From Solirubrobacterales bacterium (lineage in GTDB: Bacteria; Actinomycetota; Thermoleophilia; Solirubrobacterales; Solirubrobacteraceae), in assembly GCA_009781575.1 (NCBI GenBank), contig WQXW01000008.1:1-17874 (forward strand): DNA of 17,874 bases. Direction: 5' to 3'. The first letter of the stretch is position 1. Each line of letters starts with the position of its first letter. Shown here piece by piece: positions 5,498 to 17,874 of the stretch. The notes beneath the pieces were generated by a model. The model did no database searches. It was given only the letters and a program-made list of their open reading frames with translations, and was not told the origin of the DNA. Made by a program: the position numbers and the translations under genes.

Positions 5498-5953
5498 ATG
5501 GAGTTTTCCTCCGCACCCACGCGGGTGCTGGTGGTGGCGCACAAGACCGCCGCCACCCCGGCGCTGCTGGAGGCGGTCCACGAGCGCGCCGCGCGCGGCC
5601 CGTGCACATTCACGCTGCTGGTGCCCAGCGCGGCCCACGGGTTGCACAGGGTGGTCGATCCCCAGGACCAGGGCGCCGGCGAGGCGCAGGAGGTGCTCGC
5701 GCGCGCGGTGCCCCAGCTCGAAAAGGCGTGCGGCGCCAGGGTGGAGGGGCTCGTCGGCGACGCCGACCCGGTGGCCGCGGTGCACGACGCGATCAACCTC
5801 CACGGCCCGTTCGACGAGGCGATCGTGTCCACGCTGAGCGCGCGCCTGTCGCGCTGGCTGCGGCTGGACCTCCCCAGCAAGGTGGCCGGCATGGGCCTCG
5901 AGGTCGCCACGGTCACCCCCAGCGAGGCGCCCAGCGGGGCGCACGCCGCCTGA
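5498..5953 (+). CDS. Universal-stress-protein-like small protein
   Basis: The 151-residue protein begins at ATG 5498, preceded by GAAGGGAG at a good ribosome-binding distance. The frame is open upstream to 5390 but the extra residues are basic and featureless. The fold looks like one Usp/Rossmann-type alpha/beta domain: an opening strand RVLVVAHKTAATPALLEAV, a second strand CTFTLLVPSAAH, a helix EAQEVLARAVPQLEKA, a VEGLVGDADPVAAVHDAI segment, and a later strand DEAIVSTLSARLSRWL. Similar stand-alone domains occur in other actinobacteria, usually as hypothetical or Usp-like proteins, sometimes named as permease C-terminal domains. I see no membrane segment and no clear ATP-binding GxxGxxxxG(S/T) motif. 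It follows the ABC-like gene after 168 nt, with its own direct-repeat element upstream, so it may be a separate transcript. Confidence 0.6.
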   Translation: MEFSSAPTRVLVVAHKTAATPALLEAVHERAARGPCTFTLLVPSAAHGLHRVVDPQDQGAGEAQEVLARAVPQLEKACGARVEGLVGDADPVAAVHDAINLHGPFDEAIVSTLSARLSRWLRLDLPSKVAGMGLEVATVTPSEAPSGAHAA

Positions 5954-5976
5954 GCAGCGCGCCGGCGCCGGTCGGC

Positions 5977-5982
5977 TACGAT
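5977..5982 (+). promoter_or_regulatory. Putative -10 box (TACGAT) for tRNA-Thr
   Basis: TACGAT matches TAnnnT and ends 14 nt before the mature 5' end of the tRNA, a normal spacing for a tRNA promoter with a short 5' leader. No clear -35 is visible in the GC-rich upstream sequence. Confidence 0.45.
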
Positions 5983-5996
5983 CCGAGGGCCCCACC

Positions 5997-6069
5997 GCCG
6001 ACGTAGCTCAGCCGGTAGAGCACCTCCATGGTAAGGAGGGGGTCAGGAGTTCGAGTCTCCTCGTCGGCT
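5997..6069 (+). tRNA. tRNA-Thr (anticodon GGT)
   Basis: A full cloverleaf can be drawn by eye. The acceptor stem is GCCGACG paired with CGTCGGC (6062-6068), with discriminator T6069. The D arm is GCTC-AGCCGGTA-GAGC. The anticodon stem is CCTCC/GGAGG around loop ATGGTAA, giving anticodon GGT for ACC/ACU threonine codons. The T arm is AGGAG-TTCGAGT-CTCCT. The 3' CCA is not encoded. Confidence 0.95.
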
Positions 6070-6119
6070 TCGCTTCGCGTTACTTCGCTCGCTTCGCGCG
6101 GTGGTCCGGCGCAGGGCTT

Positions 6120-6251
6120 CGAACACACCTGTCGGAGGAGGCGTTGGGGGATTCAAAAAGAGGATTCGTTCCGCGCGGAACCAATCCGAAAAACAAAACA
6201 CGCAACGGCCGGAGCTCGGATCCCGGCGCCACCGCCGCAGCGGGGCGCCGG
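6120..6251 (+). repeat. Extragenic palindromic repeat element, copy 1
   Basis: The 88-nt core at 6120-6207 matches copy 2 at 84 of 88 positions. It opens with CGAACA, contains GCGTTGGGGGATTC, and centres on the perfect palindrome GTTCCGCGCGGAAC (6168-6181) flanked by pairing GGATT/AATCC. It then carries an A-rich tail ending in CGCAACG. A second hairpin follows, CCGGCGCC (6223-6230) with GGCGCCGG (6244-6251). The element lies downstream of tRNA-Thr and just ahead of the antitoxin gene's -10 box. No open reading frame of its own is credible. Confidence 0.85.
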
Positions 6252-6254
6252 CGC

Positions 6255-6260
6255 TATGGT
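6255..6260 (+). promoter_or_regulatory. Putative -10 box (TATGGT) for the toxin-antitoxin operon
   Basis: TATGGT fits TAnnnT and ends 8 nt before the antitoxin ATG at 6269, implying a leaderless or nearly leaderless transcript. It abuts the end of repeat copy 1. Confidence 0.4.
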
Positions 6261-6268
6261 GTGGCGAC

Positions 6269-6505
6269 ATGGCAGGCGACACGGCGACGATACGCGTGAC
6301 CCGCACCACACGCGACCTGCTGGCGCACCAGGCACACGAGCGGGGCGTGTCGCTCGCGGCGCTCGTCGGCGAGCTCGCTCGCGGGCTCGAGGTCGAGGCG
6401 ATCTTCGAGTCCGAGCGACGGGCACGTCGAGCCGAAGCTGCCGATCCTGCGGCCGAAGCGGAGCGGGGTCTCTGGGAGGCGACCCTGGAAGATGGAATCG
6501 ACTGA
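6269..6505 (+). CDS. Ribbon-helix-helix antitoxin (MazE/PemI-like role)
   Basis: This 78-residue protein starts at ATG 6269; longer starts read through repeat copy 1 and are rejected. The N-terminus fits a ribbon-helix-helix DNA-binding domain: strand TATIRVT (5-11), helix TRDLLAHQAHERG (14-26), turn, then helix SLAALVGELARGLE (28-41). The C-terminal half is acidic and Glu/Ala-rich, as expected of an extended toxin-binding tail. It overlaps the MazF-like gene by 14 nt, the usual coupled arrangement of type II toxin-antitoxin pairs. In such systems the antitoxin binds and inhibits the toxin, and the complex represses its own promoter. Assignment rests on fold pattern and neighbour. Confidence 0.8.
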   Translation: MAGDTATIRVTRTTRDLLAHQAHERGVSLAALVGELARGLEVEAIFESERRARRAEAADPAAEAERGLWEATLEDGID

Positions 6506-6839
6506 GCCCCGCCGGGGCGAGGTGTGGCTGACATCGCTCGGCGCAGCGCGGGCCGGCGAGCCGGGCAAGAACCGTCCGGCAATCGTGGTCTCAGCCGATC
6601 GCTTGATGGCCGGCTCCGCGCACGAGCCGGTCGTTGTCGTGCCGGTGTCCAGCACCCTCCCAGCATCCGCGCTGCGCCCCGGGCTCTCGGATATCCAGGG
6701 GGTGGACCGGTCGAGTCGCGCAATCTGTGGAGCGATTCGCGGTGTGGCGCGCTCGCGACTTCTCCGGCGGTTGGGAGCGCTCACCCCCGCGACGCTCGCC
6801 GAGGTCGAGCGCGCGCTTGCACTGATGCTCGATCTGTGA
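6492..6839 (+). CDS. MazF/PemK-family toxin (mRNA endoribonuclease)
   Basis: The 115-residue product has the normal length of MazF/PemK toxins and their landmarks. RRGEVWLTSLG (7-17) is the first strand. GKNRPAIVVSADR (25-37) contains the conserved Arg28-Pro. VVVVPVSSTLP (47-57) holds the Ser/Thr cluster near the active site. LLRRLGALTPATLAEVERAL is the C-terminal helix. MazF enzymes cut single-stranded RNA at short sequences and halt translation. The sequence recognised here cannot be predicted. The ATG lies inside the antitoxin frame (14-nt overlap), so the toxin is translationally coupled to it. The usual acidic/Gln-Ile-Arg strand is replaced by RAICGAIRGVARSRL, a modest deviation that does not look inactivating. 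Confidence 0.87.
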   Translation: MESTEPRRGEVWLTSLGAARAGEPGKNRPAIVVSADRLMAGSAHEPVVVVPVSSTLPASALRPGLSDIQGVDRSSRAICGAIRGVARSRLLRRLGALTPATLAEVERALALMLDL

Positions 6840-6849
6840 CGCGTCAGTA

Positions 6850-6867
6850 CCATGGAATACTCCATGG
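6850..6867. promoter_or_regulatory. Inverted repeat overlapping the DUF1707 gene start
   Basis: CCATGGA-ATAC-TCCATGG is a perfect 7-bp inverted repeat with a 4-bp spacer. It contains both candidate start codons (6852 and 6864) and overlaps a -10-like TACCAT at 6848-6853. It could be an operator, or a hairpin that would occlude the start. Confidence 0.45.
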
Positions 6868-7295
6868 TCGCCCACCGCGCGCGAATCGACACCGCCGGCC
6901 TGCGCCTCTCCGACGCCGAGCGCGAGCGCGCGGTCGGCGCGCTGAAGGCCCACTATGCCGAGGGCCGGCTGAGCACCGCGGAGCTGGAGGCACGTGTGGA
7001 AGATGTCTACCGCGCTCGCACCCACCGCGAGGCGGCCGTCGGTCTTCGCAATCTGGCGCTGCGGGGTTTGCGCGGGTTGATTGCCCCCCGCGTGCAACGC
7101 TGGCAGCGCGCGATATTGAGGATGCATCTCCTCACCTACGCCGCCGCCAACGCCTCGATGATCGGCATCTGGGAGCTCACCGGCCAGGGTCTCTTCTGGC
7201 CGGCGTGGCTCTTGCTGCCGAGCAGCGCCCTGCTCGTGGGACACGCCTGGGCCTCACGGAAACTCACCCGTGCCCTGAGCCGGCTGCGCTGGTGA
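6852..7295 (+). CDS. DUF1707 / 2TM domain membrane protein
   Basis: The 147-residue protein starts at ATG 6852; ATG 6864 is an alternative only four codons on, and neither has a Shine-Dalgarno. Residues about 11-70 match the DUF1707 pattern (RLSDAERERAVGALKAHYAE, RLSTAELEARVEDVYRARTH), a small cytoplasmic helical domain found N-terminally on many actinobacterial membrane proteins. Residues about 92-140 form a two-helix membrane module (ILRMHLLTYAAANASMIGIW; then LFWPAWLLLPSSALLVGHAW), close to the 2TM domain of bacterial sensor kinases. The same FWPxW signature recurs twice in the histidine kinase encoded downstream. Function is unknown; an envelope-stress accessory role is inferred from the neighbours. 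It begins 12 nt after the toxin stop. Confidence 0.78.
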   Translation: MEYSMVAHRARIDTAGLRLSDAERERAVGALKAHYAEGRLSTAELEARVEDVYRARTHREAAVGLRNLALRGLRGLIAPRVQRWQRAILRMHLLTYAAANASMIGIWELTGQGLFWPAWLLLPSSALLVGHAWASRKLTRALSRLRW

Positions 7296-7397
7296 TGATC
7301 GCCGCGGCCGTGCGAGCGCACGCGCCGAGCCGCTTCTGAGGGCCGCCGCGACCGCGCGACCGGCCGCCCGCGCCCCGCGGGGGTGCCTCCCCCCCAC

Positions 7398-7433
7398 CCC
7401 AGACACCGGCTGGCCCCACGCCCAGACACCGGC
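7398..7433 (+). repeat. 13-bp direct repeat upstream of the MMPL gene
   Basis: CCCAGACACCGGC occurs at 7398-7410 and again at 7421-7433, 23 bp start to start, about 75-110 bp ahead of the MMPL start. It is a candidate binding site for the response regulator encoded two genes downstream. A weak promoter-like pair (TTGGCA 7442-7447, GACGCT 7465-7470) lies after it. Confidence 0.4.
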
Positions 7434-7507
7434 GCACGCCATTGGCACGCGAACCTCGCTCTGGGACGCTCACCGCCTGATGCAAGCGAGCGAAACGGAG
7501 GCACCCG

Positions 7508-9793
7508 ATGGGACGCAATCTCGCCGAGCGGGCCGGCAGGTGGAGCGCGGCGCACTGGAAGACCGCCACCTTCGCGTGGCTGGCGTTCGTGGCGATCGCG
7601 GTGGTGCTCGGCCAGGTGGCGGGCACCGTCAAACTGCGTGACTCAGAACAGGCGACCGGTGAAAGCGCCCGCGCGGAGACCGCGCTTGAAGCATCCGGGT
7701 TTCACCGCACCGCGAGCGAGAGCGTGCTCGTGCAGAGCCCGCGCCTCACCGTGGCCGACCCGTCTTTCCGCGACACGCTCGACCGCGTGGTGAGCACCCT
7801 GCGCGCGATGCCCCAGACGCGCGAGCTGCGCTCGCCGCTCGGCGGCGGTGAGCGGGGACTGATCTCGCGCGACCGCCACTCGGCGCTGGTGCAGTTCGAC
7901 ATGCGCGGCGCCGCGGACACCGCGGGCGAACGGGTGCAGCCGATACTCGACAGGGTCGCCGCCCTGCAGCGCTCGGCGCCGGGCTTTGTGGTGGCGGAGT
8001 TCGGCGACGCCAGCGCGCGGCACGAACTCGACAAAACCATGAACCACGACTTCTCGCATGCGGAGGGCCTCTCGCTGCCGGTCACGTTCCTGGTGCTGCT
8101 GCTGGCGTTCGGCGCATTCGTGGCGGCGGGCGTGCCGGTGCTGCTGGCGTTCTCCGCGGTGCTGGGCTCGCTGGGAGTGGCCGCGGGGCTCAGCCATCTC
8201 GTACACGCCGCGGAAGCGACGAGCTCGGTGATGCTGCTGATGGGCATGGCGGTGGGCGTGGACTACTCCCTCTTTTATCTCAAGCGCGAGCGCGAAGAGC
8301 GGCGCCACGCGGAGCCCCGCCAGGCGCTGGTGCGCGCGGCGGCCACCTCGGGGCGCGCCGTGCTCGTGTCGGGCACCACCGTGCTGATCGCGATGGCGGG
8401 CATGCTGTTTGCCGGCAGCGCGATCTTCAGCTCGATCGGCCTGGGCGCGATGGCAGTGGTGCTGGTGTCGATGGTGGGCTCGCTCACGGTCCTGCCGGCG
8501 CTGCTGAGCAAGCTTGGCGACAGGGTCGATCGGGGTGTGCTGGCGGTGCTCGCGGCCGCCGCGCTGCGGGTGGTGCGCCCGCTCGGGCAGCCACGAGCGC
8601 TGCTCTGGCTGCGCGACCGGCCCACGCTCATTCACCAACTGAAGGGCAGCCGCGGAAGCTCGCGGTTGTGGTCACTCGTACTGCGCCCCGTGCTCCGCCA
8701 CCCGGCGATCGCGGTGGCGCTGGCGGCGGGCGGCCTGATCGTGATGGCGACGCCGGTGCTGAACATCCACACCAAGTTGCCGAGCTTCTCGGATCTGCCG
8801 CGCAGCGTGGCGATCGTGCGCAGCTATGAGAAGATCCAACGCGCGTTCCCCGGCGCCCAGGCCCCGGCGGTGATAATCGCAAGAGCGAGCGATGTGACGA
8901 GCGGCCCCTCGCGAGAAGCGATCGGCGCGCTGGAGCGCGAGGCCCTCGCGACCGGTCGCATGAGCGGCCCGATCCACATCGCACTCAACAGCGCTCACAC
9001 AGCGGCGCAGATCGAAATCCCGCTGGCGGGCAACGGCACCGACAACACCTCCGTGGCGGCGCTTGACACACTGCGCGACCAGGTGCTGCCGGCCACGCTC
9101 GGCCGCGCGGGCATGAGCTACGCGGTCACCGGTGAAACCGCGGGCACGCACGACTTCAACCAGACCATGCGCCAACACTGGCCGCTGGTGTTCGCGTTCG
9201 TGCTCGGGCTGGCGTTTTTGCTGCTGCTGATCACGTTCCGCTCGCTGGTGATCCCGTTGACCGCGATCGCGCTGAACCTGCTGTCGGTCGGCGCCGCCTA
9301 CGGCGCGCTGGTGTGGGTCTTCCAGGACGGCAATCTCGAAGGTGTGCTGAAATTCCACTCCAACGGAGCGGTCGTGACCTGGCTGCCGTTGTTCCTGTTT
9401 GCGGTGCTGTTCGGTCTGTCGATGGATTACCACGTGTTCATCGTGAGCCGCATCAAGGAGCTGGTCGATCGCGGCACCCCCACCGAGGAGGCGGTGTCGA
9501 GAGGCATCGCCGCGACCGCGGGCACGGTCAGCGCGGCGGCCGCGGTCATGGTGGCGGTGTTCGCGATATTCGCCACGCTCAGCACGCTGGAAATAAAGCA
9601 GATGGGCGTGGGCCTCGCGGTGGCGGTGCTGATCGATGCCACCGTGATTCGCGGCGTGCTGCTGCCGGCGAGCATGAAGCTGCTGGGTCGCTGGAACTGG
9701 TATCTGCCGCGCTGGCTTCAGTGGCTGCCGCGACTGCGGACCCATCGCGCGGAGCCCCCGGCGCAGGCGCAGACGATCGCCGAGCTCGGCTGA
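7508..9793 (+). CDS. MMPL-family (RND superfamily) membrane transporter
   Basis: This 761-residue protein starts at ATG 7508 with GGAGG eight bases upstream. The architecture is the duplicated RND type. There is one helix near 20-40, a large extracytoplasmic loop to about 187, and a helix bundle about 188-340. After a cytoplasmic stretch comes a helix near 398-418, a second loop to about 555, and a second bundle to about 735. The two proton-relay motifs are present: GVDYSLFYLKRERE (D252, Y253) and GLSMDYHVFIVSRIKE (D640, Y641), equivalent to the paired Asp-Tyr dyads of MmpL3. It is therefore predicted to be a proton-driven exporter of lipids or other hydrophobic molecules in the cytoplasmic membrane. 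The substrate is not inferable. Twelve bases separate it from the histidine kinase, so the three genes probably form one operon. Confidence 0.92.
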   Translation: MGRNLAERAGRWSAAHWKTATFAWLAFVAIAVVLGQVAGTVKLRDSEQATGESARAETALEASGFHRTASESVLVQSPRLTVADPSFRDTLDRVVSTLRAMPQTRELRSPLGGGERGLISRDRHSALVQFDMRGAADTAGERVQPILDRVAALQRSAPGFVVAEFGDASARHELDKTMNHDFSHAEGLSLPVTFLVLLLAFGAFVAAGVPVLLAFSAVLGSLGVAAGLSHLVHAAEATSSVMLLMGMAVGVDYSLFYLKREREERRHAEPRQALVRAAATSGRAVLVSGTTVLIAMAGMLFAGSAIFSSIGLGAMAVVLVSMVGSLTVLPALLSKLGDRVDRGVLAVLAAAALRVVRPLGQPRALLWLRDRPTLIHQLKGSRGSSRLWSLVLRPVLRHPAIAVALAAGGLIVMATPVLNIHTKLPSFSDLPRSVAIVRSYEKIQRAFPGAQAPAVIIARASDVTSGPSREAIGALEREALATGRMSGPIHIALNSAHTAAQIEIPLAGNGTDNTSVAALDTLRDQVLPATLGRAGMSYAVTGETAGTHDFNQTMRQHWPLVFAFVLGLAFLLLLITFRSLVIPLTAIALNLLSVGAAYGALVWVFQDGNLEGVLKFHSNGAVVTWLPLFLFAVLFGLSMDYHVFIVSRIKELVDRGTPTEEAVSRGIAATAGTVSAAAAVMVAVFAIFATLSTLEIKQMGVGLAVAVLIDATVIRGVLLPASMKLLGRWNWYLPRWLQWLPRLRTHRAEPPAQAQTIAELG

Positions 9794-9805
9794 GCGGGAG
9801 CGCAC

Positions 9806-10963
9806 GTGGCGGGCGGCACTCGAGCGGGCGTGGCACGCGCCGCGCGGCTTGCCCCGGGGGCGGCGTGGCGTAGGCTGTCGGGTACGCTGACCCCCCAGCA
9901 CACCGCCTCGAGATCCGCCTCGCCACAGACCACACCGGGAGCGCGCACCAACACGGGGCCGCCACTGGGACGGGGGGTGGCGGTCCAGGCGATGGTGAGC
10001 GGCGGCGTGGTGTTCGGCCTGATCGTCATCTGGGCGCTCACCTCACGCGGGTACTTCTGGCCGGTGTGGCCGGCGCTCGCGCTGGCCCTGCCGCTGGCGA
10101 TCCGCGCGTGGGTGGCCTGGGTGAACCGACGCCCCGCGGGTTGGCTGGTGGCGGAGCGCCTGGACCGGGGCTGGGCGATCCGCGCGGGCGCGTGGGCGGC
10201 GGTGCTGCTGTTCCTGATAGGTGTGTGGGGCGCGGGCGGCGGCGGCTACTTCTGGCCGATGTGGCCGGCGTTCGTGGGGGCGGGCGTGGTGGGCGCGCAC
10301 GCGGCGGCGCAGTGGATGCGCGGCCCGCTGACCGAGCGGATCACCGCGCTGGAGACCAGCCGCGCGGGCGCGGTGGACGTGCAGGAGTCGGAGCTGCGGC
10401 GGATCGAGCGAGATCTGCACGACGGCGCGCAGGCGCGCTTGGTGGCGCTGGGCATGAGCCTGGGCATGGCCGAGCAGAAGCTGGCGAGCGACACCGACGC
10501 CGCGCGCGAGCTGCTGGAGGAGGCGCGCGTGGGCGCCGGCGAGGCGCTGCGCGAGCTGCGCGACCTGGCGCGGGGCATCCACCCGCCTGTGCTGGCCGAT
10601 CGCGGCTTGGACGCGGCGGTGCGGGCGCTGGCCGCGGGGTCGCCGATTTCGGTGACCGTGTCGGTGGTGATGCCGGAGCGGCCCAAGCCGCCGGTGGAGA
10701 GCGCGGCGTACTTCGTGGTGGCCGAGGCGCTGGCCAACGCGGGCAAGCACGGTCACGCCACGCGCGTGGACGTGCGCATCGTGCGCGCGGGCGAGGAGCT
10801 GCGGGTCGAGATCCACGACGACGGACGCGGCGGCGCGGACCCGGAGGGAGGAGGCCTCATGGGCCTGCGCCGACGCGTGGAGGCGCTGGACGGGACCTTC
10901 GAGGTGATCAGCCCGCGGGGCGGGCCCACGCTGATTCGCGCACAGCTGCCGGCGGGACGGTGA
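9806..10963 (+). CDS. NarL-type sensor histidine kinase with two 2TM modules
   Basis: The 385-residue frame starts at GTG 9806 behind GGGAG. The first ~60 residues are low-complexity, so a later start is possible. Two membrane modules follow, each with a YFWPxWPA signature: about 61-110 (RGYFWPVWPALALAL) and about 130-172 (GGYFWPMWPAFVGAG). A linker leads to a HisKA_3 dimerisation helix, ELRRIERDLHDGAQARLVAL, with phospho-accepting His205. The ATPase domain has an N-box (VVAEALANAGKHGHATRVDV) and G-boxes (HDDGRGG, GGGLMGLRRRVEAL). Sensing is probably within or near the membrane, as there is no sizeable extracellular domain. It would phosphorylate the regulator encoded 4 nt downstream and likely tunes the MMPL operon. 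Confidence 0.92.
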   Translation: MAGGTRAGVARAARLAPGAAWRRLSGTLTPQHTASRSASPQTTPGARTNTGPPLGRGVAVQAMVSGGVVFGLIVIWALTSRGYFWPVWPALALALPLAIRAWVAWVNRRPAGWLVAERLDRGWAIRAGAWAAVLLFLIGVWGAGGGGYFWPMWPAFVGAGVVGAHAAAQWMRGPLTERITALETSRAGAVDVQESELRRIERDLHDGAQARLVALGMSLGMAEQKLASDTDAARELLEEARVGAGEALRELRDLARGIHPPVLADRGLDAAVRALAAGSPISVTVSVVMPERPKPPVESAAYFVVAEALANAGKHGHATRVDVRIVRAGEELRVEIHDDGRGGADPEGGGLMGLRRRVEALDGTFEVISPRGGPTLIRAQLPAGR

Positions 10964-10967
10964 TCGC

Positions 10968-11624
10968 ATGCGGGTGGTGATCGCCGAGGACCTCGCGCTG
11001 CTGCGCGACGGATTGGAACGACTGCTGCGCGACAACGGCTTCGACGTGGTGGCGGCGGTGGAAGACGCGCAGTCGCTGCTCGCGGCGGTGGAGCGCCAGC
11101 GCCCGGAGGTGGCCGTGGTGGACGTGCGCCTGCCGCCGGACTTCCACGACGAGGGCCTGCGCGCCGCGCTGCACCTGCGCACCGCGGCGCCGGGCATGGG
11201 TGTGGTGATGGTGTCGCAGTACGTGGAGCCGACCTATGCGGCCGAGCTGCTGGCGGACGGCCGCGGCGGTGTCGGCTACCTGCTGAAGGATCGGATCATG
11301 GACGTCAGCGACTTCCTCGACGCGGTCACGAGGGTCGCGCACGGCGGCACCGCGCTGGACCCCGAGGTGGTGGCACAGCTGGTGGGGCGCGGCGGCCGCG
11401 ACGGCCCGCTCGCGGAGCTGACCCCGCGCGAGCGCGAGGTGCTGGCGCTGATGGCGGAGGGCCGCTCGAACGGGGGCATCGCACAGACGCTGGTGCTGAG
11501 CACCGGCGCGGTGGAGAAGCACATCGCGAGCATCTTCGGCAAGCTCGGGCTGGCGCCGTCGGACAGCGATCACCGCAGGGTGCTGGCGGTGCTGACCCAC
11601 CTGCAGGGCGAGCGAGCCGGCTGA
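10968..11624 (+). CDS. NarL/FixJ-family response regulator
   Basis: The 218-residue protein starts at ATG 10968, four bases after the kinase stop. The receiver domain (about 1-125) has the acidic pair E7/D8, phospho-acceptor D52 in VAVVDVRLPP, the Ser of VMVSQY, and the conserved Lys in YLLKDR. The C-terminal LuxR-type helix-turn-helix (about 148-205) reads LTPREREVLALMAEGRSNGG then IAQTLVLSTGAVEKHIASIF. It is slightly atypical in that the usual asparagine- or glutamate-rich NxEIA segment is NGGIA. It should bind DNA as a dimer when phosphorylated. The direct repeats at 7398-7433 ahead of the MMPL gene are candidate targets, but nothing proves this. Confidence 0.94.
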   Translation: MRVVIAEDLALLRDGLERLLRDNGFDVVAAVEDAQSLLAAVERQRPEVAVVDVRLPPDFHDEGLRAALHLRTAAPGMGVVMVSQYVEPTYAAELLADGRGGVGYLLKDRIMDVSDFLDAVTRVAHGGTALDPEVVAQLVGRGGRDGPLAELTPREREVLALMAEGRSNGGIAQTLVLSTGAVEKHIASIFGKLGLAPSDSDHRRVLAVLTHLQGERAG

Positions 11625-11640
11625 GCGCACACGCGCCGCC

Positions 11641-11663
11641 GGCCGCGCCGGGCTGGCGCGGCC
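11641..11663 (+). terminator. GC-rich hairpin after the response regulator gene
   Basis: GGCCGCGCC pairs perfectly with GGCGCGGCC across loop GGGCT, 17 nt after the stop codon. There is no T-tract, as is common in very GC-rich actinobacteria, so termination here is inferred. Repeat copy 2 starts 9 nt later. Confidence 0.5.
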
Positions 11664-11672
11664 TCGAACACT

Positions 11673-11794
11673 CGAACACACCTGTCGGAGGAGCCGTTGG
11701 GGGATTCAAAAAGAGGATTCGTTCCGCGCGGAAGCAATCCGCAAAACAAAAAACGCAACGCCCGCTCCTTCGACCGGCACCGGCGGAGCGGGCG
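11673..11794 (+). repeat. Extragenic palindromic repeat element, copy 2
   Basis: The 88-nt core at 11673-11760 differs from copy 1 at only four positions. One change breaks the last base of the central palindrome (GTTCCGCGCGGAAG, 11721-11734). The following hairpin has CGCCCGCTCC (11759-11768) paired with GGAGCGGGCG (11785-11794). Its sequence is unlike copy 1's hairpin but its position is the same. The left edge shows a tandem CTCGAACA duplication at 11663-11678. It lies downstream of the response regulator in the same orientation. Confidence 0.85.
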
Positions 11795-11810
11795 GCCGGA
11801 TCCGCGGCAC

Positions 11811-11816
11811 TACAAT
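11811..11816 (+). promoter_or_regulatory. Canonical-looking -10 box (TACAAT) in convergent intergenic region
   Basis: TACAAT is the best -10 match in the window, yet it points rightward into a region with no convincing gene. A transcript from here would cover a tiny ORF at 11834 and then run antisense into the end of the first arylsulfotransferase-like gene. Confidence 0.35.
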
Positions 11817-11833
11817 GAACCCCTGGATCACTC

Positions 11834-11902
11834 ATGAGGGCTCTGTGGAGGCGATTTCTCGAGGTCATGCGCCAGCGTCGGCGGATGAGGCGCCGCGGCT
11901 GA
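11834..11902 (+). CDS. Possible 22-residue basic peptide (speculative small ORF)
   Basis: ATG at 11834 to TGA at 11900-11902 encodes MRALWRRFLEVM followed by QRRRMRRRG, 22 residues. The peptide is very arginine-rich and could form an amphipathic helix. It begins 17 nt after a TACAAT box. No strong Shine-Dalgarno is present, and such ORFs arise by chance, so this is listed only because of the promoter-like box and the otherwise empty gap. Confidence 0.15.
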   Translation: MRALWRRFLEVMRQRRRMRRRG

Positions 11903-12000
11903 GACGCATCCCGCAGCCAGAGATCGAGCCCCACCCGCCGCTACACGTCGAGTCCCAACGCCAGCACGAGCGCCGCGTTGAGGTGTCGGAGCCGCCCGCG

Positions 12001-12048
12001 GTGCGAGCGCGGCGTGCGAGCGCGGCGGGCGAGCGCGGCGGGCGAGCG
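12001..12048. repeat. 13-bp tandem repeat, about 3.7 units
   Basis: The unit GTGCGAGCGCGGC is present twice exactly (12001-12013, 12014-12026). A third copy follows with one change (GGGCGAGCGCGGC, 12027-12039), then a partial fourth. It abuts the stop codon of the first arylsulfotransferase-like gene on the opposite strand, in a convergent intergenic region. Confidence 0.7.
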
Positions 12049-12050
12049 GA

Positions 12051-13937
12051 TCAGCGCTTGACCGCGCGGGAGCTGCCCAGCACCGCGCCCGCGCCGTCGA
12101 GCGCCTGCACCTCTACGTAGGGCGGCACGAGCTTTGTGGCGATCGCGGTCTCAAAGCCTGTGGGGCGCGCGCGGGTGAGCGGCGCCAGCTGCGTCGCGCT
12201 CGGGCCGGCCAGCAGCTTCCAGGCGGCCACATTCGTGGCGCCGTTCCAGCTGGCGTACACGGTCAGCCCGTGCCTGCCGGCGACCGTGGCGATCGCCGGC
12301 GGTTCGCTCGGCGTGGCTTCCCACTGGAAGCGGTACGCGCGATAGGACGCGGTCAGATAGGGCATGCGCGCGTCGAACACCAGCTTGCCCGCGGAGGTGA
12401 ATTCGGAGTAGAACGGCGCCGAGCCCCAGCCGACGAACACGTTGCCGCCGTGCAACAGTTGCACGCTGCCCTGGCTGACCGAGCGCAGGGGCGAGGGATG
12501 CACGAACTGGGCCACCAGGGTGTCGGTCCCGCGCTTGCGGTTGATCGCCACGATCACCGCGCGGGATTGCGGATGCACCATCGGCGAGCCGCCGTTGTCG
12601 AAGATCGCAAAGTCGCCGTTGGCGAGTTCTTTCACATCGTGCTGGTAGGCCGTGGCGGCGCCGGGCCCCAACTTGACACTCGAGCGCTTGCCGCCGATCT
12701 CCAACGCCACCTCGCCGGTGCTGTGGTTCACCAGGTACATCGCCGAGGTGTTGCGGGAGGAGATGAGGAAGTCGCCTTCGTGGGTCAATTTGACCGTGTT
12801 GATGTGGAAATAGTCGAATGGCCAAATGGTGCTGGCCCCGTGCGGCGAGGTGTACGATTCCGAGAGCGCTATGTGATCGACGCTGTGCCACTCGCGCCGC
12901 ACCAGCCCGGTGCGCAGGTCGAGTTCCTCAAACACGCCGTCGGTGACCGCCGCGTCGCGGGGGCCGCCCACGTAGGAGAGGTTGCAACGCATCGGGTTGA
13001 ACACCGTGATCAGCGCCCCGCCGTTGGCGGTGAGGTGGAAGTCGTGCAGGTCCGCCTGGTATCCGTTGCCCGCCCGCACGTGCGCCAGTGTGCGGTAGGA
13101 GGAGTCGGCGATCACCTCTTCGCCCTCGCCAAAGCCCTGTGGCGGGATGTAGCCCTGCCACCAGGTGAGCACCGGCCGGCCTTCCCAGTCCTGCACGCGG
13201 AAGTTGGTCGCCTCGATCCCCGTGGGCAGCGGGCGAAACCACACCAGCTTCCCGGCGCTGTTGAAGATCATCGGGCCGCTCTGCCCGGGCCCGGAGTAGG
13301 GCGCGGCAAACACGTCCCCCGCTTCCTCCCGCGCGGGCGAGGCGCCGGTCAGCCACACCATCGGGGGATGGAGGTCCGGCTGTGAGTGGAAGCTCTGCAC
13401 ATCGCCCCGTTTGCCCGCCGGTTTGGCGCCCGGCTTCACATGCGGCAGCGGATCCGGCTGGGACACGGTGAAGCTGAACTGAAAGCGCGCCAGCGCTCTC
13501 CCTCTGCTCTGCGCGCCGCGCACCGTGACGGTCTCGCCCGGGCGGAAGGGCTTCTCCGGCAGAAAGCTCGCGCCGTCGCCCTGCGAGTAGGCCGCCAGGC
13601 GCCCGCTGTGGGCGCCGGTCGCGGAGCCGCGCACGCTCAGCCCCACGATCGAGCTCGCCGGCGCGCCCAGCAGGCTGATCTGGGTGGACGGCGAGGCGTC
13701 GTAGGAGCCCGGCAGCGGCGAGACGCTCAGCGTGGTGCCGTGCACCACCGATGAGCGGTTGAGAGCGCTCGGCGCGCAGCGCGGATAGCCGGGCGCGGGC
13801 GGCGCGCGCCGCGCACCCGCCCGCGCGGCGAACACCCCCAGCGCGAGCACCGCGATCGAGGCCCCCGCGATCCGGGCCGCTCTGCGCCGATGCGATCGCC
13901 GAGCGCCACCGTTCTCCCCGTGCTCCCCCATCTCCAT
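12051..13937 (-). CDS. Arylsulfotransferase (ASST)-family secreted protein, paralogue 1
   Basis: A 628-residue protein starts at ATG 13937 (13931 is an equally plausible in-frame ATG with AGGG at better spacing). The frame stays open to 14426 only by reading through a repeat element. An Arg-rich N-terminus then a hydrophobic segment (ARIAGASIAVLALGVFAARA) suggests an export signal or anchor. Residues about 45-160 form an Ig-like segment, and about 190-520 the ASST beta-propeller: PMIFNSAGKLVWFRPLP, WWQGYIPPQGFG, DLHDFHLT (H298, H301), DYFHINTV (H378), SSRNTS (R395), YQHDV (H433). These His/Arg positions resemble the E. coli AssT catalytic set (H252, H356, R374, H436), which moves sulfate from phenolic donors to phenols without PAPS; the correspondence is inferred. 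The C-terminus is fibronectin-like. Paralogue 2 lies directly upstream. Confidence 0.85.
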   Translation of the reverse strand: MEMGEHGENGGARRSHRRRAARIAGASIAVLALGVFAARAGARRAPPAPGYPRCAPSALNRSSVVHGTTLSVSPLPGSYDASPSTQISLLGAPASSIVGLSVRGSATGAHSGRLAAYSQGDGASFLPEKPFRPGETVTVRGAQSRGRALARFQFSFTVSQPDPLPHVKPGAKPAGKRGDVQSFHSQPDLHPPMVWLTGASPAREEAGDVFAAPYSGPGQSGPMIFNSAGKLVWFRPLPTGIEATNFRVQDWEGRPVLTWWQGYIPPQGFGEGEEVIADSSYRTLAHVRAGNGYQADLHDFHLTANGGALITVFNPMRCNLSYVGGPRDAAVTDGVFEELDLRTGLVRREWHSVDHIALSESYTSPHGASTIWPFDYFHINTVKLTHEGDFLISSRNTSAMYLVNHSTGEVALEIGGKRSSVKLGPGAATAYQHDVKELANGDFAIFDNGGSPMVHPQSRAVIVAINRKRGTDTLVAQFVHPSPLRSVSQGSVQLLHGGNVFVGWGSAPFYSEFTSAGKLVFDARMPYLTASYRAYRFQWEATPSEPPAIATVAGRHGLTVYASWNGATNVAAWKLLAGPSATQLAPLTRARPTGFETAIATKLVPPYVEVQALDGAGAVLGSSRAVKR

Positions 13938-14078
13938 CCCTAAAGATCCTCTCACGTTGGCCGGCTGCGCGAGCCGGATCGTAGACGCGCGGCGAGCGGC
14001 GCGGCCCGTGCCCGCCACGCGGTCGGCGCGCGGGCGGCGGGGGTGCTCGTTGTTCGGCTTGTCTCCGCCGGGAAACAA

Positions 14079-14267
14079 GCGCCAGATTTCCGCAAAATGC
14101 GCGTGCGCCCGCTCGGCGGTGCCGGCGGGCGCCGGTCGAGCAGCGTCCGTTTCGTGTTTTGTTTTGAGGATTGGTTCCGCGCGGAACGGATCCTCAAAAC
14201 AAATCCCCCAACGGCGCCTCAGACAGATATGTTCGGGGCTGTCGCGCCAGATTCCCGCAAAATGCGC
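14079..14267 (-). repeat. Pair of 24-bp direct repeats bracketing repeat copy 3
   Basis: Two 24-bp sequences at 14079-14102 and 14244-14267 differ at one base. Read on the plus strand they begin GCGCCAGATT and end CGCAAAATGCGC. Each is preceded on that strand by GTTCGG within about 30 bases, so the similarity is longer than the 24 bp. They flank palindromic copy 3 in the same orientation, 165 bp apart. The left one also carries a hairpin, GCTTGT/ACAAGC around the TCTCCGCCGG area (14057-14080). Confidence 0.7.
14111..14235 (-). repeat. Extragenic palindromic repeat element, copy 3 (inverted)
   Basis: Reading the minus strand from 14235, an 88-nt core (14235 to 14148) aligns without gaps to copies 1 and 2, with about 73 of 88 identical to copy 1. 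It keeps CGAACA, GTTGGGGGATT, GTTCCGCGCGGAAC (14174-14187) and AAAACAAAACACG. The left arm differs in a run of six bases and now pairs with the right arm (TTTGTTTTGAGGAT with ATCCTCAAAACAAA), making a longer stem. The 3' hairpin is nested: GCTCG/CGAGC (14111-14115, 14137-14141) around CCGGCG/CGCCGG (14122-14135). It sits between the two arylsulfotransferase-like genes, downstream of paralogue 2 in the same orientation. Confidence 0.85.
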
Positions 14268-14307
14268 ATTTCCGCATTTCCGCGCCGCCGCCGGGCCGGC
14301 GAAGAGG

Positions 14308-16149
14308 CTAACGCGAGATCGTGCGCGAGGTGCCCAGCACGGCGCCCGCGCTGTCCAGCGCCTGGACCGCCACGTAGGCCGGCGCGCCCGGCGTGGCGAT
14401 CGCGGTCTCGAAACCGCGGCGCGCATCGCTCCCCAGGGGTGAGAGCGCGGTGGTGTTGGCTCCGCCGAGCAGCCGCCACGCGGCGACGCCCGTGGCGCCG
14501 TTCCAGCTGGCGTAGACGTTGACGCCGCCCCGCTTTCGCGGGGTCACGGCCACCGACGGCGGTTGGCTGGGGGTGGCTTTCCACTGGAAGCGGTAGCCGC
14601 GATAGGAGGCGGTGGGAGTGGGGAAGTGCGCGTCGAATACAAGCTTGCCCCGGGGGGTGAATTCGGAGAAGTCGGGCACCGTGCCCCACCCGATGAACGC
14701 GTTGCGGTTGGGCAGCAGTTGCATGTTGCCCTGGCTGGGCGACTGCAACGGTGTGGGGTGCACGAATTCGTCCAGCAGTTCGTCGCGCCCGGTGTCGGGG
14801 TCGATCGACACGATGATGCCGCGCGATTGGCGATGCACCATCGGCACGCCGCCGTTGTCGAAGATCGAGAAGTCGCCGTCGGGCAGTTCCTGGGCGTCGT
14901 GCTGGTATGCGGTGGCCGCATTGGCGGCGAGCGCGACGCTCGAGTGCTTGCCACCCACACGCAGCGCGATCTGCTCGGTCGCGGGATTCACCAGGTACAG
15001 CGCGGAGGTGTTGCGCGACGACACCAGCAGATCGCCATTGCGAGCCGGTTCGATCGTGTTGATGTGGAAGTAGTCGAAGGGCCATTCAAGGCTCGAGGAG
15101 CGCGCCGACGCGTAGGAATCCGACAGCGGCACGTGATCGACGCTGTGCCACTCGCGGCGCACCAGACCGGTGCGCAGGTCGAGTTCCTGAAACACACCGT
15201 CGGTGACGGCCGCCCTGCTCGATCCGCCAACGCTCGAGAGGTCGCAGCGGATCGGGTTGAACACCGTGACGAGCGCGGTGCCGTTGCCGGTGAGGTGGAA
15301 GTCGTGCAGGTCCGCGCGAAAGCCGTTGCCCGCCCGCACGCGCAACAGTGTGTGATAGGAGGAGTTGGCCACAACGTCTTCGCCCTGGCCGAACCCCTGC
15401 GGCGGGATGTAACCCTGCCACCAGGTCAGCACGTGATGGCCTTCGTAGCTCTGCACGGCCAGGTTGGTCGCCTCCGTGCCCAGGGGCAGGGGGCGAAACC
15501 ACACCAGCTGGCCCTCGCTGTTGAAGATCATCGGGCCGTTCTGTCCCGGCCCGGAGTAGGGCGCGGCGAACACGTACCCCGGCTGCTGGCGCGCGCGCGC
15601 GGAGGTGCTCACCGTGGGGGTCGGCGGGTGCAGGCCCGGCTGGGAGTGGAACGCCTGCACTTCGCCCCGCTTGCCAGCGGGTTTGGGGGTGGGCTGGGCG
15701 TAGGGCAACACATCGGGCTGGGAGACCGTGAAGCTGAACGCGAAGCTCCGCAGCGCGGGCCCCTCGCGCACGCGCCCGCGCACGGTCACCAACTCCCCCG
15801 GCTGGAAGGCCCGCGAGGGCAGAAAGCTCGCGCCGTCGCCCTGCGAGTAGGCCGCCAGCCGGCCGGCGTGGGTACCGCTCGTCGAGCCCCTCGCGCTCAC
15901 GCCCTCCAGCGCGTCCGGCGCGACCCCGAGCAGGCTGATCTGGGTCCGCGGGGAGGCGTCGCGCGAGCCCGGCAGCGGTGACACGCTCAGCGTGGTGCCC
16001 GGCAGCTGGGCGGAGCCGTTCAGCGAGGGGGGCGCGCACTGCGGCTTGGGAGGGCCCGAGGCGCCTCGGCGCGCCGCCACCTGCTGACCCCCAAAGGCCG
16101 CGAGCGCGAGCAGGACCGCGGCGAGGCCACCTGCTCTTCGTCTGCTCAT
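14308..16149 (-). CDS. Arylsulfotransferase (ASST)-family secreted protein, paralogue 2
   Basis: The 613-residue protein starts at ATG 16149 with a clear signal peptide (MSRRRAGGLAAVLLALAAFG then GQQVAA). Domain order matches paralogue 1: an Ig-like N-terminal part with SVSPLPGSRDASPRTQISLL, the ASST propeller (about 185-510), and a fibronectin-like C-terminus (NVYASWNGATGVAAWRLLGG). Candidate catalytic residues are H282 and H285 (DLHDFHLT), H362 (DYFHINTI), R379 (SSRNTS) and H417 (YQHDAQ), followed by FSIFDNGG. Residues are extensively identical to paralogue 1 along the whole length, so the genes arose by tandem duplication. The gap between them is 370 nt and holds repeat copy 3, so co-transcription is uncertain. 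PAPS-independent sulfate transfer outside the cytoplasm is the family function; many actinobacterial members are uncharacterised and may have other roles. Confidence 0.87.
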   Translation of the reverse strand: MSRRRAGGLAAVLLALAAFGGQQVAARRGASGPPKPQCAPPSLNGSAQLPGTTLSVSPLPGSRDASPRTQISLLGVAPDALEGVSARGSTSGTHAGRLAAYSQGDGASFLPSRAFQPGELVTVRGRVREGPALRSFAFSFTVSQPDVLPYAQPTPKPAGKRGEVQAFHSQPGLHPPTPTVSTSARARQQPGYVFAAPYSGPGQNGPMIFNSEGQLVWFRPLPLGTEATNLAVQSYEGHHVLTWWQGYIPPQGFGQGEDVVANSSYHTLLRVRAGNGFRADLHDFHLTGNGTALVTVFNPIRCDLSSVGGSSRAAVTDGVFQELDLRTGLVRREWHSVDHVPLSDSYASARSSSLEWPFDYFHINTIEPARNGDLLVSSRNTSALYLVNPATEQIALRVGGKHSSVALAANAATAYQHDAQELPDGDFSIFDNGGVPMVHRQSRGIIVSIDPDTGRDELLDEFVHPTPLQSPSQGNMQLLPNRNAFIGWGTVPDFSEFTPRGKLVFDAHFPTPTASYRGYRFQWKATPSQPPSVAVTPRKRGGVNVYASWNGATGVAAWRLLGGANTTALSPLGSDARRGFETAIATPGAPAYVAVQALDSAGAVLGTSRTISR

Positions 16150-17768: not shown

Positions 17769-17813
17769 GGGGTTTCATTTGCGGGCCGCTCTCCTGGGGG
17801 GGGACAAGGATTC

Positions 17814-17850
17814 CGCTTGCTGAAGCGATTTGCGCGCAGGGCAGCTGCGC
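17814..17850 (+). terminator. Two small hairpins downstream of the IclR gene
   Basis: CGCTT/AAGCG (17814-17818, 17823-17827, loop GCTG) is followed by GCGCAG/CTGCGC (17834-17839, 17845-17850, loop GGCAG). They lie about 45-80 nt after the stop. There is no T-tract, so a terminator role is tentative. Confidence 0.3.
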
Positions 17851-17874
17851 TCTCCTCGAGCCCTGTGCCGGTGC

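Follow-up and report, generated by a model that had tools for sequence, protein, structure and literature searches.

A palindromic intergenic repeat with several hundred copies in a Solirubrobacterales genome bin

Element A at the locus

The stretch considered here (the window) comprises the 17,874 nucleotides at positions 1 to 17,874 of contig WQXW01000008.1, from a Solirubrobacterales bacterium (GenBank assembly GCA_009781575.1), and carries three copies of a non-coding repeat of about 90-125 bp, designated element A (Table 1). The three copies lie where an initial annotation of the sequence had placed them, and the identities given there hold as well: copies 1 and 2 agree at 84/88 positions of the conserved core and copies 1 and 3 at 73/88, as do copies 2 and 3 (73/88). 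The letters GTTCCGCGCGGAA recur at 6168, 11721 and 14174 on the plus strand. All three copies belong to a large intergenic family, which is probably mobile in origin.

Copy 1 starts 50 nt past a tRNA-Thr gene (5997-6069) and is followed by a small gene that matches no Pfam family and then by a PemK/MazF-like gene; by their layout, these two genes (6269-6839, +) form a type II toxin-antitoxin pair. Copy 2 comes after a gene for a LuxR-type response regulator. Copy 3 sits between arylsulfotransferase-like genes at 12051-14078 and 14308-16080 (-), the second of which has a Pfam match while the protein of its tandem neighbour is 66% identical.

Table 1. Element A copies and adjoining repeat units in the window
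Feature	Position	Strand	Evidence
Copy 1 (CAAAAA type), conserved 88-nt core	6120..6207	+	sequence comparison
Copy 1, central hairpin GGATTCGTTCCGCGCGGAACCAATCC	6162..6187	+	family core folding, z -3.28
Copy 1, variable GC-rich tail (second hairpin of the initial annotation)	6208..6251	+	folding, z -0.67
Copy 2, conserved core, CAAAAA type	11673..11760	+	sequence comparison
Copy 2, central hairpin	11715..11740	+	
Copy 2, variable GC-rich tail	11761..11794	+	folding, z -2.7
Copy 3, conserved core, TGTTTT type; single imperfect palindrome formed by the longer arms, 14147-14214	14148..14235	-	
Copy 3, central hairpin	14168..14193	-	
Copy 3, variable GC-rich tail	14111..14147	-	folding, z -1.8
Repeat B unit GCATTTTGCGGGAATCTGGCGC, left of copy 3	14244..14265	-	
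Repeat B unit, one mismatch, right of copy 3; direct repeat with left unit	14079..14100	-	
End of an element of repeat-C type, with a terminus related to GGGTGCGGCTCTCC..., near contig end	17779..17831	-	
Left outer module, type II, runs into contig end	17839..17874	+	

Size, anatomy and gene context of the family

The window is part of a genome bin of 2,254,892 bases in 401 contigs, 73% complete and with 1.4% contamination. A 45-base pattern of A, allowing up to three mismatches, matches 343 places in this bin (200 forward, 143 reverse), a density of about one per 6.6 kb; the places fall on both strands and, among the matches listed, on many contigs, and the reversed pattern, used as a control, matches none in the same bin. 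A profile search of 81 stretches, window included, totalling 894,052 bases, gave 294 raw matches that reduce to 150 non-redundant ones, since the palindrome matches both strands; 87 lie on the plus and 63 on the minus strand, and together they occupy 17,548 bases, or 2.0%.

The search of host and related genomes that had been proposed with the initial annotation found the core many times in the bin and not in its relatives. The 20-letter palindrome core, with at most one mismatch, has 319 occurrences in the bin and none in 23 congeners, in 231 other genomes of the order or in 398 further genomes sampled from the class, which together make 454 distinct genomes. When 40 relatives were searched with 123 nt of DNA, nothing beyond short tail matches in two of them came up; no relatives of A turned up among the plasmids, phages and viral contigs searched, and Rfam has no match at the elements. 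In a scan of named genomes, Pluralibacter and Victivallaceae were among the matches listed, for the palindrome stretch only; this listing may omit the window's own genome and sets no bound on other named species. The literature searched on such repeats held no family that could be matched to A, and the reservation that the core might lie within an already named family was borne out neither there nor in Rfam. The family is lineage-specific, being confined to one genome among those searched, and contributes a dense class of palindromic repeat not turned up in that literature.

The conserved part of A runs from about CCTCGAACACACCTGTC through CACGCAACGG, and conservation fades at both ends. Within it lies the central hairpin, GGATTsGTTCCGCGCGGAACsAATCC, whose asymmetric flanks, GTTGGGGG... 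and AAAACAAAACACG, are conserved as well. The six-base block before the hairpin reads CAAAAA in 120 of 168 copies and TGTTTT in 28; in the TGTTTT type the arms lengthen, giving an imperfect palindrome some 70 nt long that is interrupted in the commoner CAAAAA type. The dimorphism resembles what template switching in a hairpin might produce, namely an inverted copy of the arm opposite. In copy 3 of the window the TGTTTT block is found at 14196-14201 (-). The 168-copy sample and another of 161 copies require an exact 12-base palindrome, and a sample of 177 copies was drawn with a pattern admitting up to seven substitutions, so that all three understate variation. A coding role was considered and rejected, stops being present in each of the six frames in 12 to 138 of the 177 copies.

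Over 170 copies the core folds with a mean z of -3.28, with 74% of copies below -2, and the central hairpin is real. Most copies continue into a GC-rich tail, roughly GGCCGSWGCTCGACCGGCACCGCYGGAGCGGGCG, in some with expanded GGCACC units; such tail units are seen in L011, L035, L209:8009 and L232:6694. It is in the tail that the initial annotation had described a second hairpin, whose pairing was said to be conserved while its sequence changed. As a family trait this hairpin did not survive a wider sample: the tail, taken as 64-114 nt from GTTGGGGG, folds like shuffled sequence over 170 copies (mean z -0.12, 4% below -2), as do the flanking controls (-0.03 and +0.01, 5% each), and for a tail of 75 nt the values are -0.41 and 8.7%, against -0.25 and 7% for its control (n=172). 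Pairing arms are to be expected there from composition, because the window is 69.5% GC. Nor does covariation in the core rise above that of shuffles. In an alignment of 64 rows (61 of 117 full-length copies and the three of the window) 85.4% of cells are paired vs 85.2%, and three pairs show two-sided change where 3.9 are expected, while RNAalifold finds compensatory change in 0 of 13 pairs. A control with slid partners, giving 15-47% paired and covariation scores of 0.011-0.021 vs 0.026 for the structure, favours the structure, but any structure derived from the sequences will outdo slid versions on that account.

Gene context was scored with a simple gene caller of our own, which called 838 genes, for the 142 copies of at least 60 bits. 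Almost all (131) have a called gene on either side, and 10 are at contig ends, which may explain part of the fragmentation of the bin; the single copy called coding occupies a true spacer bridged by the gene caller, between genes whose products we take to be DnaC-like and PurA-like. Relative to net spacer length, convergent spacers are enriched (33 vs 17.6 expected, p=2.7e-4), divergent spacers depleted (21 vs 36.8, p=0.0017) and tandem spacers as expected (77 vs 76.6, p=1.0), and a copy is present in 128 of 465 spacers of at least 30 nt. Loss of those copies that land on promoters would lead one to expect both the divergent depletion and the convergent enrichment.

Neighbouring repeats and constraint

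Element A is intertwined with other repeats. Repeat B (GCATTTTGCGGGAATCTGGCGC, up to two mismatches) is a second dispersed intergenic repeat with 63 places in the bin, where it mostly adjoins A; outside the bin it was found, without A, at one place in each of two congeners (L106, L108). There it forms part of a unit of some 80 nt that contains a hairpin. Among the 138 A copies with usable flanks, 48 adjoin B (25 on the left only, 14 on the right only and 9 on both sides, as with copy 3 of the window), against 0 of 150 random places. Repeat C has inverted ends, GGGTGCGGCTCTCC..., and measures about 400 bp when complete; no transposase was found for it. A C element of 399 bp lies inside an A copy at L185:6446-6844, with AAAAACAAA directly outside both ends as a 9-bp duplication. 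At L165:785-1080 an A copy lies between two C ends, and the whole unit, 296 bp long, is bordered directly by GATCAAAC and GATCAAAA, a duplication alike at 7 of 8 letters, and at L202:3797-4103 two C ends surround A with no flanking duplication seen by eye. In the 894 kb there are 22 C ends, 19 of them no more than 400 nt away from A; at two places, L209:5011 and L227, C has no A nearby. Further C loci are L227:5623-6020 and L209:4776-5042. In other copies a third outer module, type II, stands before or after A.

Variation among the copies is sharply position-specific. At 96 aligned positions in 177 copies, 42 have at most five exceptions and 25 more than 20, and the dispersion index is 31.6. 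A split-half test placed 6.0% of near-neighbour differences in 40.6% of the sites, and when kin were left out and pairs with at most three differences compared, 5 of 98 differences fell in constrained sites vs 38.5 expected. Linkage of variable sites (34 of 253 pairs at z>4) is strongest within the six-base block or between adjacent positions, a few weaker links reaching up to 27 nt, and several variable positions show two common states only.

Degraded copies are scarce. A search with a core profile and no letter filter, which is blind to pieces consisting of tail only, returned 137 matches of at least 70 bits, 8 at 40-70, one at 10-40 (at a contig edge) and 7 below 10, the range in which all six decoys scored. 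In the profile search of the 894 kb, 8 of the 150 matches score below 60 bits: four are located at, or directly beside, a contig edge or a C element (L184, L192 twice, L231), and the other four are pieces (L176:116, L182:12304, L185:6841, L229:8005), that in L182 being a partial duplication adjoining a full copy and that at L185:6841 being the latter half of the copy interrupted by C. Apart from these, nearly all A copies are intact. The idea that constraint is relaxed in the interrupted copy of L185 was not supported. The unusual combination of position-specific conservation and lack of detectable relics would arise either from mobile lineages constrained for movement or from copies kept one by one; the two-state variation favours the former, the fuzzy ends and absent relics the latter. 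Variable and near-frozen positions side by side, with no detectable relics, make the family a good natural test of whether intergenic repeats of bacteria are kept by mobility or by use at each site.

Origin and relationships of element A

In light of its copy number, dispersal, intergenic placement, single hairpin, position-specific conservation, nesting with two repeat families and absence from the relatives searched, A is probably a non-autonomous palindromic mobile repeat of the kind represented by ERIC and the miniature inverted-repeat transposable elements (MITEs), lineage-specific and intergenic, with several hundred copies. The central arms GGATTsGTTCC/GGAACsAATCC would fold into a hairpin in single-stranded DNA, for example at the replication fork, and an enzyme encoded elsewhere would recognise the hairpin together with its asymmetric flanks in trans and copy the unit into spacers, where copies would have persisted if promoters stayed undisturbed. 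The mobilising enzyme may have been lost, or its gene may lie in the missing quarter of the genome.

Several observations weigh against mobility. The longest common substring in the flanks of 122 copies equals the shuffled expectation, so that there is no general target-site duplication, and the few long substrings are B contexts, including one tandem pair. The ends of A are not sharp, and no terminal inverted repeats are seen by eye at its own limits. In the 73% complete bin no match was found to the Y1 transposase (PF01797), which 5 of 14 control genomes match, or to the ISL3 transposase (PF01610), which 4 of 14 match, other transposase families not having been searched. Among the 838 called proteins of the 894 kb, three pairs reach at least 60% identity, and two of these are neighbouring genes. 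Decayed relics, expected from a mobile family with a long history, are not detectable, and the congener matches sought for empty sites are at best 65-73% identical, too distant to resolve them.

The alternatives differ in what they make of the same evidence. That A is a repetitive extragenic palindromic (REP) or REPIN repeat moved by a REP-associated tyrosine transposase (RAYT, a Y1 enzyme) would suit its high copy number, extragenic position, palindromic form and species-specificity, which are properties of REP/REPIN families and their RAYTs (PMC2817692, PMC3116915). A REP is defined, however, by a short palindrome preceded by a GT(A/G)G head (PMC2817692), and A lacks both features tested: no such head stands directly before the hairpin (64-copy alignment, by eye), and the PF01797 gene is without a match in a bin from which it could be missing. 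A REPIN is an inverted pair of REPs, and the unit of A, 90 nt or more with asymmetric flanks, is not such a pair. This origin is highly improbable. The proposal in the initial annotation of a REP/MITE-type mobile element holds in kind, for an intergenic, palindromic, species-specific repeat that has hundreds of copies and is nested with others, and falls for strict REP membership. It is also very unlikely that A is a passenger, forming the inner part of repeat C and spread by its transposase. The L165 unit with its near-duplicate flanks and the clustering of C ends near A point that way, but the same 894 kb holds 22 C ends vs 150 A copies, C lies inside A in L185 and occurs away from A elsewhere, and the L202 unit has no flanking duplication by eye.

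A structured 3' RNA, which the initial annotation had also entertained, or a terminator, is scarcely probable. Of the 77 copies in tandem spacers 50 are closer to the upstream stop (p=0.012), and the minus strand of the common type reads as a hairpin followed by TCTTTTT; yet orientation is not significantly biased, with 34 tandem copies in the same and 43 in the opposite orientation (p=0.36), p>0.39 at all distance cut-offs and a 13/20 split in convergent spacers (p=0.30), and there is no covariation, no Rfam match and, in a scan of 5900-14600, no terminator at the three window copies. Two further counts are small: 14 of 21 copies in divergent spacers lie on the strand of the nearest gene, and TGTTTT-type copies divide into 6 same and 13 opposite. 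The absence of a significant strand preference is what a double-stranded site would give, and a host-used DNA element, bound by a protein or serving the nucleoid or recombination, with each copy under purifying selection whether or not its origin was mobile, is unlikely but has a modest chance of being correct. It would account for the sharply position-specific conservation, the scarcity of differences at constrained sites, linkage mainly between close neighbours and the single match at 10-40 bits vs 137 at 70 or more. Absence from 23 congeners argues against an old housekeeping site, however, and the two-state positions look like reshuffled old variants and not like free drift. Moreover, with unlinked sites nearest neighbours may be chance neighbours, so that the pair tests are no clean measure of selection following insertion, and the 1.1% change at "constrained" sites is partly true by definition. 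More specifically, and more doubtfully, a palindromic mobile repeat might have become a network of several hundred maintained sites, with about 40 fixed positions and no dead copies, serving a nucleoid, replication, recombination or termination protein unique to the lineage.

As a mobile repeat, A would appear to work most like ERIC, an intergenic element of about 127 bp that folds as one long stem-loop, is classed among the MITEs and numbers 30 to 711 per genome (PMC10969869, PMC2267715). Compared by description, both are intergenic and form a stem-loop, with hundreds of copies. The palindrome of A takes up about 70 of its 90-125 nt and is interrupted in CAAAAA copies, and A is found here in one genome, ERIC in two bacterial families. 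It resembles the MITEs in being short, non-coding, intergenic and present in many copies. Correia elements and other bacterial MITEs are not known to carry a transposase of their own. They are intergenic and able to insert into one another (PMC10969869). Unlike them, A shows no terminal inverted repeats recognisable by eye, its TGTTTT type being a single imperfect palindrome, and no general target duplication, on which strict membership of the MITEs fails; the neighbouring repeat C possesses both. BOX repeats are modular. BOX, bcr1 and other stem-loop families are dispersed intergenic repeats (PMC2267715) and are alike by description, but the cited descriptions contain no combination like that of A with the outer types B, II and C. 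The best reading is that A is an ERIC/MITE-like, non-autonomous palindromic repeat without a counterpart in the literature searched, intertwined with two other repeats.

At the right end of the window, 17779-17874, a C end is followed by the left type-II module, which is cut by the contig end. Because 8 of the 10 matches to this module are then continued by A, a fourth A copy would be expected just beyond the contig.

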